64,000 nucleotides of DNA from Salegentibacter salinarum. GTDB lineage: Bacteria > Bacteroidota > Bacteroidia > Flavobacteriales > Flavobacteriaceae. A program made the translations under genes and the position numbers. Shown piece by piece: positions 59,180-64,000 of this stretch. The notes beneath the pieces are model-generated. The model was not told where the DNA came from and made no database searches. It saw only the letters and a program-made list of their open reading frames with translations. Positions within the stretch are counted from its first letter, which is position 1, and every line of letters starts with the position of its first letter. Location: assembly GCF_900168115.1 (NCBI RefSeq), contig NZ_FUZC01000008.1:142373-206372 (forward strand), in the 5' to 3' direction.

Positions 59180-59572
59180 TTATAGAATTTTGCTTTTTTC
59201 CATATAAGCTTGCCAGGTTACAAGAATATATTTCTTTTTTCCGTTTTCATACCGGGTTAGAAAGCCAAATTCGTATACAAAAAGGTAAACTTCCTTTTTA
59301 CTGTTTTTCCAATAATGAGTAAAGAAATTAGGATCGAAACCGTGTTGTTTTAAAATGTCAGCTCTAACCGTGGCTTTCCCTGCTTTGTTGAAGCTTTTTA
59401 AAATTCTTCGATTAGTTTTTAATTGACGGTCTACTTTTGCATAAAATCCGGCAGCGCCTTCTTTCGTTTTTTGATAATGCCAGGCACTTTTGCAATAGGG
59501 ATCGCAAAACTTTTTATCTGGACGGCCTTCCAATTTTTTATTACAGGCCAGGCAATATTTTACAGTTTCCAT
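59180..59572 (-). CDS. Zinc-ribbon DNA-binding-like protein beside the recombinase
   Basis: 130 residues. A short zinc finger opens it: CLACNKKLEGRPDKKFCDPY followed by CKSAWHYQ (C-x2-C ... C-x3-C). A basic helical middle (VDRQLKTNRRILKSFNKAGK) and a winged-helix-like end (ADILKQHGFDPNFFTHYWKN ... ENGKKKYILVTWQAYM) follow. It is a recurrent flavobacterial protein of unknown role. It is divergent from the recombinase gene, sharing a 97-bp gap that contains an inverted repeat, so a regulatory or accessory role in recombination is possible. Confidence 0.72.
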   Translation of the reverse strand: METVKYCLACNKKLEGRPDKKFCDPYCKSAWHYQKTKEGAAGFYAKVDRQLKTNRRILKSFNKAGKATVRADILKQHGFDPNFFTHYWKNSKKEVYLFVYEFGFLTRYENGKKKYILVTWQAYMEKSKIL

Positions 59573-59637
59573 AATTTCAAAAGCCGTTTTAGTCGTATAA
59601 TATACGGATAATAAACGTTTTAGGGTTTAAGTCTGTT

Positions 59638-59660
59638 TACATTTATATAGCAATAAATGT
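59638..59660. promoter_or_regulatory. Inverted repeat before the cassette-array recombinase
   Basis: TACATTTAT (59638-59646), spacer ATAGCA, ATAAATGT (59653-59660). Arms of 8-9 bp with a 6-bp centre are the build of a tyrosine-recombinase core site. The same half-site word recurs, with the arms in the other order, at 60816-60837 just before the cassettes. Confidence 0.6.
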
Positions 59661-59669
59661 GCAGGCCAT

Positions 59670-60793
59670 ATGGATAGGAAATATATTACATTAAAGAATT
59701 TAATCATTGATAAGAAAAAATGTATAGGATTAAAATTCTTTACCGATAAAGTAGTGCAGGCTCTGGTAAATGATTTACCCGATGTACAATGGAGTGAGAA
59801 GTTCCGCATGAATTATATTTTAAACACACCCGAGAACCTGGAGCTTATATTTAAGACCTTCCGAGGGGTTGCCTGGATCAATTGCAGTCATTTTTATTCT
59901 AATGCAAGTTTTGGTCGTGAGGAAGAGCCTGTAAACATTCAACAGCTGCAAAATAGGGAAGAGGTAAGTGGAAAGCGATATTGCCCTGGAAGCTACCTTA
60001 GAAAGTTAGAATTAAAGCGGTATGCCAATAGCACGATCAAAACCTATGTTTCTTGTTTCGAAACTTTCATAAATCATTACAGTGATAGGGAGATAAAGGA
60101 TTTGAATGAAGAAGATATAAGATTGTACCTTCAAAAGTTGATACGAGAGGATTTCTCTCATTCTTATATTAACCAGGCCATTAATGCTATTAAATTTTAT
60201 TATGAAGTGGTACTGGAAATGCCCAATAGATTTTATTCCATAGAACGTCCAAGACCTATAGAGCAATTGCCGAAAGTACTGGCTAAAGAGGAAATAATGG
60301 CTATTATTGAGCATACTAATAATATTAAGCACCGATGTATAGTAGGTTTGCTTTATTCGGCCGGTTTAAGAAGAATTGAGCTCTTAAATTTAAAATTGGA
60401 CGATATAGATAGTAAGAGAATGGTAATTAAGGTAAGATCGGGCAAGGGGAATAAAGATAGGTTTACAATCCTAAGCGAAAAACTACTTGGTGACCTACGA
60501 AAATACTATAAAGAATGGCGACCGACTAATTTTTTGTTTGAAGGCCCGGGTAGGAAAGCTTATAGTCCCGAAGTGTTTCGAGTATAGTAAAGAATGCTGC
60601 AGAGAAAGCGAAGATTAAGAAGAGAGTGACACCTCATATGTTACGACATTCCTTTGCCACCCACTTGTTAGAGAGTGGAACCGATTTACGGTATATTCAG
60701 GTACTCCTGGGACATAGAAGCACCAAGACTACCGAAATATACACGCACGTGGCCACTAATATTTTTTTAAAGATCAAAAATCCGCTAGATTAG
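59670..60793 (+). pseudogene. XerC/D- or integron-integrase-like tyrosine recombinase, frameshifted
   Basis: Frame one runs 59670-60587: an extra N-terminal region of about 100 residues (from KYITLKNLIIDKKKCIGLKF), a SAM-like core-binding domain (about 108-195; YANSTIKTYVSCFETFINHY), then catalytic box I Arg (LYSAGLRRIELLNLKLDDID) and the Lys hairpin (VRSGKGNKDRFTI). The frame stops at 60585. From 60590 another frame gives KNAAEKAKIKKRVTPHMLRH, SFATHLLESGTDLRYIQVLL, GHRSTKTTEIYTHV and ...NPLD, i.e. box II H-x-x-R and the nucleophile Tyr. GTATAGTA in place of GTAGTA (an extra TA near 60584) explains the break. No IntI-specific insert is seen between boxes. Directly upstream of the cassette array and in the same direction. 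May be a genuine null or a sequence error. Confidence 0.82.
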
Positions 60794-60815
60794 CTGAAGT
60801 AAAGACATAAAAGAT

Positions 60816-60850
60816 ATAAATGTAATACTACATTTATACGTACGTTGCCA
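60816..60850 (+). other. attI-like primary insertion site of the cassette array
   Basis: ATAAATGTA (60816-60824), spacer ATAC, TACATTTAT (60829-60837) form a perfect 9-bp inverted repeat, followed by ACGTAC and GTTGCCA (60844-60850), where cassette 1 begins. TTTATACG..ACGTT here matches the right arm of all three attC-like repeats (TTTATACGAGACGTT). It lies 23 nt after the recombinase stop, where an attI site is expected. Confidence 0.65.
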
Positions 60851-60856
60851 ACAATT

Positions 60857-62466: not shown

Positions 62467-62486
62467 TACATTAAAACCAACCAACT

Positions 62487-62864
62487 ATGAAAAAAATTCA
62501 ATTACTCTTTAAAAAATGCATTCAGGATTCTCAAGATTATGGGAGCGACAATGAACATATGATTTCCCGGATCTTCTATGAAGTGGATGGAGTAGACTAT
62601 GAATGCAATGTCCGACAACCCTACGGGGAAAGTTTCTCATTTGATGAGGATCCGATTGAAGTAGAGGCTCCAAAAGAGTTAGGAAAAAAGATCAACTACG
62701 GACAATTTCGTGACGAAGTCGAGAATTATTACAAGCAGATAGTCGGATCATCGGGGAGAGGAATAAATATCCAGGGAGGGACAAATATTCGGATGCAAAA
62801 TAACACTTTTGAAATGGAATATCGGACTGAGATAGACGAAGCCGGCTACTCTGGCGGATGGTAA
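62487..62864 (+). CDS. Cassette 3: small cytoplasmic protein of unknown function
   Basis: 125 residues, ATG 26 nt inside the cassette. No signal peptide, unlike the other three cassettes. It is acidic, with an alpha/beta N-terminus (ISRIFYEVDGVDYECNVRQP) and a Gly/Asn-rich stretch (SSGRGINIQGGTNIRMQNNT) that resembles beta-strand turns. I recognise no family. The cassette (62461-62994) holds only this gene. Confidence 0.72.
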   Translation: MKKIQLLFKKCIQDSQDYGSDNEHMISRIFYEVDGVDYECNVRQPYGESFSFDEDPIEVEAPKELGKKINYGQFRDEVENYYKQIVGSSGRGINIQGGTNIRMQNNTFEMEYRTEIDEAGYSGGW

Positions 62865-62870
62865 AACGTA

Positions 62871-63000
62871 TGCTAACAACATATAAAAACAATGCTTAAG
62901 CCTGTCTCAAATCGAAACTCCGTGCTCGCTTGCTACGCTTGATTGTCCTGCGGACAATCAAGCTCGCCAGCTCGCACAGTTTTTATACGAGACGTTGTGC
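62871..63000 (+). repeat. attC-like repeat 3 (end of cassette 3)
   Basis: 130 bp from TGCTAAC to GTTGTGC. GTATGCTAAC (62868-62877) is the exact complement of the first 10 bases of cassette 3 (GTTAGCATAC, 62460-62469). The right 55 bp are identical to those of repeat 2 apart from the last bases, which belong to cassette 4. The central palindrome has 11-bp arms. Confidence 0.88.
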
Positions 63001-63022
63001 AAAATTTAAATTAATAAGAACT

Positions 63023-63643
63023 ATGAATAAAATCTTACTGATTACAGTATTTACGTTAACAAGCCTTAATTTCTATAGCCAGTCTAATAAAGACGAATTA
63101 CTGGAAAAGGATATAGCAGGTATAGTTGAAGAAATAAAATTTATGTATCACTATGATCAAGCAACTCGGGAATACTTACATTTTCAGACTTTTGATAAAA
63201 ATATAACTGACAGCATCGAAAGTTTAAGTAAAGAAATGAGGGACAATCGAAGTAATTTCACTCCTGTAAATTCTGATTCTTTAAAAAACAAAATTTGGAA
63301 CACCTATATTAATCCTATGGATCAAATCCATACAGAACGTATGATTGAAATAACGCAAAAGTACGGTTTTCCTTCCGCTCAAAGGTTAAAGAAATTTTCA
63401 AAAGATTCAATTGATTTCAATCCACTTATCTTACTAATTCACTCGCCATCTAGATTTTCTAAAGAACTGATTGAAATTGCAGAATACGAAAAAAGCAAAG
63501 ACAGAATTAAAAAATGTGATTTCGGATACTTACTTTGGCATTTAAAGGGGCGGTCTGATTTCCAACCAATGTTGGATAAAGGGTACGAAATGGCAAAAAA
63601 TGAAGATGGAACCTTTAGCTTAAAAGCAGTAGACTGTGAATAA
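63023..63643 (+). CDS. Cassette 4: secreted protein of unknown function
   Basis: 206 residues from the ATG at 63023; earlier codons lie in the repeat. Signal peptide MNKILLITVFTLTSLNFYSQ. The mature part is helical, with YDQATREYLHFQTFDK, MIEITQKYGFPSAQRLKKFS, and DFGYLLWHLKGRSDFQPMLD. The segment around QKYGFPSAQRL followed by a His-containing LLIHSP is faintly like the DUF6624 protein of cassette 2, which may mean distant kinship. No function can be given. Confidence 0.75.
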   Translation: MNKILLITVFTLTSLNFYSQSNKDELLEKDIAGIVEEIKFMYHYDQATREYLHFQTFDKNITDSIESLSKEMRDNRSNFTPVNSDSLKNKIWNTYINPMDQIHTERMIEITQKYGFPSAQRLKKFSKDSIDFNPLILLIHSPSRFSKELIEIAEYEKSKDRIKKCDFGYLLWHLKGRSDFQPMLDKGYEMAKNEDGTFSLKAVDCE

Positions 63644-63650
63644 AAACTTT

Positions 63651-64000
63651 GCACAACAATATATCCTATGAAAAGCAATAAGTCCTTCTCTCAAATTTAA
63701 TATTTTATTTTCTAATTATTTCATTTTGATGATGTTTTTGGAGTGTTGAAATGTTGGCAAGTCTTTTCAGCCCTTGCTTACTTGTCAATATTTCAATACT
63801 TATAACCTGCTCCGCATCCTATATGTGGTCCTCGCCCTGGCGAAGCCACCAGCATCATTATGATTTTGATTATAAAACCTGTCCACTAGCTAAAAAATGT
63901 GATCCTTAATTGGCCACGTACACTGTTTTGTGATACAGGCTGAAATTGGTTTTGAGCTGGTTAGTATTATTTTTTGTTTTTTATGCAACAACTCCTATTT
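63651..64000 (+). other. End of cassette 4 and non-coding tail
   Basis: TTTGCACAAC (63648-63657) is the exact complement of the first 10 bases of cassette 4 (GTTGTGCAAA, 62994-63003), so a cassette end lies here. The conserved 120-bp repeat does not follow; instead there is unrelated sequence with an imperfect long hairpin (TTGAAATGTTGGCAAGT near 63746-63762 against ACTTGTCAATATTTCAA) and a GGTCCTCGCCCTGGCGA hairpin. No gene is recognised to the window edge. Confidence 0.55.

Follow-up and report, generated by a model that had tools for sequence, protein, structure and literature searches.

There are reports of integrons as such from Bacteroidota (PMC9024848, PMC9668308, PMC8618304). For the Bacteroidetes proper, the IntegronFinder 2.0 paper cites In0 elements, from its previous study, and a single complete integron, that of Salinibacter ruber (PMC9024848). 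Integron surveys depend on profiles of the integrase IntI and on models of attC sites. For IntI integrons, the literature gives GTTRRRY as the consensus of the R box (PMC8876359) and describes extrahelical bases as the main strand signal of the sites, of 20 to 300-fold (PMC6393395). The biogenesis of the rAID (recombinase-associated acquired interbacterial defence) clusters of gut Bacteroidales is termed an area of active research in PMC12247911, where the words integron and cassette occur 0 times in the main text. Here, we analyzed a stretch of 64,000 nucleotides (nt) from Salegentibacter salinarum (Bacteroidota, Flavobacteriaceae; RefSeq assembly GCF_900168115.1, contig NZ_FUZC01000008.1, positions 142,373 to 206,372), called the window below. 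We regard it as very probable that the window holds a four-cassette array of an integron-like system of Bacteroidota, whose non-IntI recombinase would likely move single-gene circles at a palindromic site, by way of a predicted folded single strand with an outer stem private to each cassette. In the open-licence PMC text, screened by title or abstract opening, no treatment of such arrays was found.

The locus comprises the following features:
59180-59572, minus strand: divergent accessory gene, from its open reading frame (ORF) and the neighbourhood survey, for a protein of 130 amino acids (aa) with an N-terminal zinc-ribbon-like motif, CxxC...C...C
59670-60587, plus strand: first open part of a tyrosine recombinase gene, 305 aa, with the N-terminal domain, the SAM-like domain and the start of the catalytic domain, after which the frame breaks
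60581-60793, plus strand: remainder of the catalytic domain, read in a different frame and with the HxxR, H and Y residues (PF00589, 9.1e-21, profile positions 113-170)
60815-60843, no strand assigned: attI-like palindrome with 10-base-pair (bp) arms (60815-60824 and 60829-60838) and a 4-nt centre, followed by a 5-nt spacer
60844-61502, plus strand: cassette 1 (GTTGCCAACA...TGTTGGCAAC), ORF 60857-61477
61503-61617, plus strand: attC-like site 1
61618-62343, plus strand: cassette 2 (GTTACCCGCA...TGCGGGTAAC), ORF 61642-62352 (DUF6624), with its stop codon within attC-like site 2
62344-62459, plus strand: attC-like site 2
62460-62877, plus strand: cassette 3 (GTTAGCATAC...GTATGCTAAC), ORF 62487-62864
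62878-62993, plus strand: attC-like site 3
62994-63657, plus strand: cassette 4 (GTTGTGCAAA...TTTGCACAAC), ORF 63023-63643
63658-63700, plus strand: left part of one more site, cut short, which is the array end (by-eye comparison with the left end near L013 8664)

The four same-direction units with private 10-bp words, the three repeats and the attI-like palindrome named in the original prediction are all present in the sequence as described. The repeats measure 115, 116 and 116 nt from AAC to GTT, the first GTT lies 5 nt beyond the palindrome, and the recombinase gene, whose frame is broken near 60580, is oriented toward the array. All four units have A at position 11 of the start word and C facing it in the end word. 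This mismatch, already pointed out as conserved, is nearly fixed in the relatives, where it is flanked by further pairs at positions 12-14.

To quantify the pairing, we used two sets of units that have some genomes in common. The first comprises the genome of the window and six sister genomes, and only the three repeats of the window were used to seed its profile. There, 117 of the 130 units match at 9 or more of 10 positions (115 of 128 without duplicates). Positions 4-9 are paired in 92-93% of units, against 32-63% when the ends are dealt out anew, and positions 12, 13 and 14 in 93, 88 and 63% (69, 39 and 39% when redealt). Position 11 is A in 129 of the 130 units and faces C in 122. For the wider set, a profile built from 89 sites in chains with paired words gave 165 full-ended sites, 48 dropped hits and 126 units. 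Because of this seeding positions 1-9 lean to pairing, while positions 10 and 12-14 are unselected. Pairing reaches 95-98% at positions 4-9 (29-51% when shuffled), 73% at position 10 (38%), and 90, 93 and 75% at positions 12, 13 and 14 (64, 38 and 39%), with A at position 11 in all 126 units and C opposite in 110. Two units are present in duplicate, and 116 of the remaining 124 reach 9 of 10. The words keep the GTT and depart from the R box at position 5 (T or C in 74/126) and position 6 (C in 72/126). In both sets, words pair inside a unit and not between units.

For comparison, we collected 18 loci of the same phylum around IntI genes scoring over the cut-off, of which 7 had usable arrays, with a total of 46 units. 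Their words are paired at frequencies of 0.91, 0.91, 0.83 and 0.74 at positions 8-11 and of about 0.4 at positions 12-15. Position 4 is always A, position 11 is variable, and the pairing fades at position 12. The original prediction had presented a match of 10 bp, against 7 bp in known integrons, as a distinguishing trait. As IntI units of this phylum (46 units, 7 loci) pair over about 11 positions, long private words are common to IntI integrons as well and this contrast fails. The true distinguishing traits are the A.C at position 11, the pairs at positions 12-14, a stem with few bulges and with G.T pairs on the bottom strand, the recombinase family, and the accessory gene.

Among genome contigs, at least 590 stretches matched a search pattern, and 580 of the 590 listed encode a relative of the recombinase. 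The best 80 of these 580 were retained and make, with the window, a set of 81 loci. An anchored unit (words of at least 9 bp) is present in 49 of the 81 loci, a chain of at least two in 32, and a chain of at least three in 25. Among 405 shuffles, 38 have a single anchored unit, 2 have a two-unit chain and 0 a three-unit chain. Hence, a lone unit could be due to chance in around 9% of the loci. Where a unit is present (49 loci), the first one lies 1140-1188 nt past the start of the recombinase match, within a searched stretch of 180 nt. When more than 1.5 kb is available downstream, at least one anchored unit is found at the expected place in 40 of 46 loci. In the other 26 loci that lack a unit, the sequence stops within 1 kb, as would be the case for assemblies interrupted at repeats. 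Repeat matches occur in 14 of the 15 genomes of the genus, and the recombinase is found at 89% identity or more in six of them, including that of the window. A relative is present at E 1e-70 in 31 of the 296 genomes of a phylum sample and at E 1e-100 in 34 of the 199 genomes of a Flavobacteriaceae sample. The window array is likely to be one instance of a gene-capture system that is widespread.

One might instead regard the repeats as static elements between genes, such as terminators, RNA structures or dispersed palindromes, with a gene order altered by ordinary homologous recombination. Hairpin-forming repeats could indeed recombine homologously, and the genome of the window has 13 repeat matches on six contigs, several of which are degenerate. 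The original prediction had named repeats found everywhere without pairing of their words as evidence against itself. Dispersed degenerate copies do exist, yet the words pair within units and not between them. Furthermore, the arrays lie at a set distance from one recombinase family, and the repeats have no match in Rfam up to E 1. We thus consider static elements very improbable. Three of the dispersed copies (L010, L011 and L012, in G000:C27 and C13) have a nearly identical upstream flank of 40-odd nt.

The position of attI, the co-oriented one-gene units, the near-total difference in cassettes between sister species and the end of flank homology at the attI GTT are all directly visible when loci are compared. 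The array start was located in 68 of the 81 loci, with perfect attI arms of at least 8 bp in 32 of the 68, against 2.2% of shuffles. Among the 37 loci with arms of at least 7 bp, 31 have arms ending 5-7 nt ahead of the GTT, and there are 28 distinct arm sequences. In other words, the letters of the arms vary and their pairing is preserved. Homology of the flank extends 3-13 nt beyond the start of the attI GTT, into the first cassette, and no farther in nine stretches from five genomes. The comparison of cassette content between relatives, suggested in the original prediction, revealed that cassettes differ: the 132 cassettes of the genus include 11 homologous pairs (at least 60% of the shorter one aligned), and shared cassettes have the same neighbour in 0 of the 13 comparisons where both neighbours are known. 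The fourth cassette of the window has a counterpart in G008:C10, at 89% over 659 nt. In two within-genome duplicates, the downstream sites are 97 and 91% alike, against 86 and 76% for the upstream sites.

Of 233 cassette units, some of them present twice, 199 have their longest ORF in the direction of the array and 2 in the opposite one, and 32 have none of 50 aa. A random draw of 100 among the 201 cargo proteins matched 52 Pfam families with at most 2 members each, including AbiH, PemK, Gp49 and GNAT, and some of the matches in this sample are defence-like. In the window, one cassette matches DUF6624 and three have no match in Pfam; immunity genes of the type VI secretion system (T6SS), the cargo of rAID clusters, were not found among them.

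Using DNA parameters, we predicted the fold of each site as it would be in the circle, where the end word and the start word of the same unit flank the site. Of 118 sites, 116 have a lower predicted energy on the bottom strand, and this also holds for 33/33 when taking one site per locus, for 110/111 within the genus, and for 220 of 223 unique sites. The predicted trunks lack any single-base bulge in 69/77, 35/41 and 91/111 sites of the family, against 5/42 IntI sites. This amounts to 0.10-0.20 single-base bulges per trunk in the family and 2.05 in IntI sites, 37 of 42 of which have at least one. The family has instead 2.75-4.37 G.T pairs per trunk on the bottom strand and 0.12-0.27 on the top strand, while IntI sites have 0.31 and 1.74, respectively. 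In the IntI control the bottom strand is lower in only 11 of 42 sites, which indicates that fold energy alone does not define the strand choice of IntI.

The recombinase is outside the IntI family and lacks the IntI insert, in agreement with the integron-like array with a non-IntI recombinase that had been proposed. Intact relatives mostly have 374-376 aa. Six of them score 199.7-215.4 bits with the IntI model TIGR02249, below its cut-off of 265, and the genome of the window has no match over this cut-off. The spacing between the catalytic K and H is 64-65 residues in 85/86 near and 24/25 distant relatives, against 106 in 12/12 IntI; together with a gap in the alignment to 2a3v, this shows that the insert is absent from the family. 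The catalytic residues are mostly kept in the 88 near relatives, some of which are duplicates and some truncated: R and K in 88, H in 83 (Q in 3), R in 86, H in 84 and Y in 84. A predicted structure of the recombinase (predicted local distance difference test, pLDDT, 80; predicted template modelling score, pTM, 0.48) matches XerA, IntI and XerH over residues 102-374. The genome of the window has two matches to the recombinase at E 1e-60, neither of them whole; the second is a broken fragment at G000:C24:79005-79403. As the copy beside the array is also broken, the window array is probably frozen.

Could this be an ordinary integron, with a diverged IntI and ordinary attC sites that current models miss? 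The cassette logic is the same, and IntI arrays of the phylum share the private words of about 11 bp. The six intact relatives also pass NF040815 ('site-specific tyrosine recombinase/integron integrase'), with 230.9-239.1 against a cut-off of 220. In a quick tree of 70 rows, the family and IntI are joined against XerA/XerD with a support of 96 (Shimodaira-Hasegawa-like approximate likelihood ratio test, SH-aLRT). Hence, the relationship to XerC/D in the original prediction stands in the broad sense and not as a closer kinship. However, the 10 IntI rows of the same tree form a separate clade (support 100) on a long stem of 2.3, and the near family forms one of its own (support 99). The TIGR02249 scores, the missing insert, the lack of most single-base bulges in the sites and the words off GTTRRRY also speak against an ordinary integron. 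Finally, IntI over the TIGR02249 cut-off is found in 84 of the 296 phylum genomes, which serve as positive control, yet in 0 of the 199 Flavobacteriaceae genomes, the family of the window, where the new recombinase is found in 34. We therefore consider this explanation unlikely.

As another reading, the units could be dif-type modules moved by the host XerC/XerD. In the pdif modules of Acinetobacter, XerC/XerD act on dif-type units, and the window shares with them a tyrosine recombinase and an inverted-repeat attI. The dif site has a length of 28 bp, and the 89 chain sites, of 115-187 nt and in one orientation, are unlike dif sites, although dif itself was not searched. In addition, the recombinase beside the array is set apart in the tree from the XerC/D-like proteins of its own genome. 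An action of the host XerC/XerD on dif-type modules is thus most improbable, even more so than static elements.

In 76 of 80 loci, the zinc-ribbon gene is divergent from the recombinase gene and at most 600 nt away from it. In its protein, C23 and C27 are invariant and C7 and C10 nearly so, and a Pfam scan of it gave no match. This protein might assist or regulate the recombinase.

Several observations weigh against an integron-like system of its own. The window's recombinase is broken, and some members of the genus have repeats and no such recombinase at E 1e-60 (e.g., G003, with 19 repeat matches, G009 and G012). By the rule applied, 13 of the 81 loci have no attI-like start, and the perfect arms are limited to the 32 loci mentioned above. 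Six of the 46 loci with long flanks have no anchored unit (L019, L022, L035, L064, L068 and L095), and about 9% of shuffles also yield a single unit. Cassettes shared between species are not clearly more alike in their downstream site than in the upstream one. The folds are predictions, and arms rich in A and C would by themselves yield some G.T pairs on the bottom strand. The analysis compares sequences only, with one genome per species. Finally, as the system follows integron logic in nearly every respect, it may have a common origin with IntI integrons.

If the array is a non-IntI cassette system, as we favour, a cassette and the site that follows it would be excised as a circle, with the cassette's own word as closure, and would re-enter at attI with a crossover at the GTT. 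The substrate would be the folded bottom strand, chosen because it has a G.T pair wherever the top strand has an A.C mismatch. These pairs may thus do the work of the extrahelical bases of IntI integrons, which would fit a recombinase devoid of the IntI insert.

Two other observations concern the surroundings of the array. The stretch at its end (63640-64000) has three matches in G007 (two in L150, one in L151) with 75-77% identity, and is perhaps an array-end element. Upstream, the region 54732-58000 contains a further tyrosine recombinase, which has an arm-binding domain, and a DUF5712 ORF that weakly matches a relaxase; these are perhaps the remains of a mobilisable element.

More generally, we see about even chances that Bacteroidota have a second, deeply separate integron system, with an insert-less recombinase, a zinc-ribbon partner and hairpins marked by G.T wobbles rather than by flipped-out bases. 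Branches of it would have built the rAID arrays of Bacteroidales in the human gut and, at one time, carried tet(X3) as their first cassette. If this is true, its presence in 34 of 199 Flavobacteriaceae genomes would add a large and so far unseen cassette pool, for the most part of unknown function and with some defence and toxin-antitoxin genes. It would also show independently how one strand of a hairpin can be read by a recombinase, and the biogenesis of rAID clusters would become directly testable.

The comparison with distant relatives covers 19 stretches around recombinases at 38-61% identity, of which 7 have at least two anchored units, 8 have one and 4 have none; some of these recombinases have no N-terminal domain. 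The 16 chain sites of the 7 stretches, which were selected by their words and 6 of which come from one near relative (L220), all have A.C at position 11, and in 15 of them the bottom strand has the lower predicted fold. In gut plasmids of Bacteroides ovatus and Parabacteroides distasonis (L260, L261), a relative heads genes partly annotated as T6SS immunity, as in rAID clusters. In the predicted fold, 12 of 13 of their sites are lower on the bottom strand. Sites in Rufibacter and Pontibacter plasmids (L259, L262) measure around 51-55 nt, far below the length of the chromosomal ones.

The rAID clusters of gut Bacteroidales (PMC12247911) have a recombinase with around 50% identity to P0091 over its residues 105-373, and behind it co-oriented short genes with intergenic motifs. 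Their words also pair within units, with at least 6 of 7 matches at positions 4-10 in 14 of 16 units, against 9 of 240 mispairings. They differ by a start word ATT instead of GTT, by sites of around 40 nt between words, and by their immunity-gene cargo, and no relative of the zinc-ribbon gene was found in the two stretches at E 1e-4. The clusters of L260 and L261 look like a branch of the window's cassette system. The founding rAID paper reportedly may draw a parallel with integrons.

The xerD-tet(X3) module of Acinetobacter plasmids (PMC7758954) has a shortened recombinase that shares 57% identity with P0091 over residues 144-374 of the latter. A 9-bp palindrome lies 7 nt ahead of a GTT word, followed by one gene and a partly matching end word. 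This end word matches at 6 of the 9 tested positions, the best among 184 AAC places, and sits 25 nt past the gene. In contrast to the window, no full site was seen after it, and the module travels with other mobile elements. This arrangement is no more than suggestive, and tet(X3) (L256:5853-7089) may at one time have been a first cassette. The archaeal XerA-like recombinases (5hxy, 4a8e) are among the best solved matches, over residues 102-374, with the first 100 residues unaligned. They are not known to form cassette systems.

IntI integrons remain the closest in logic. They share with the window the recombinase gene beside attI, the one-gene cassettes with a site between them, the private complementary words at both ends and the GTT/AAC junction. 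Their recombinase belongs to another family and has the insert that is absent here. The window system has instead a stem mostly free of single-base bulges, with bottom-strand G.T pairs, a nearly fixed A.C at position 11 with pairs at positions 12-14, and A or G at position 4, which is always A in the 46 IntI control units. It further has a palindromic attI and a conserved divergent zinc-ribbon gene.

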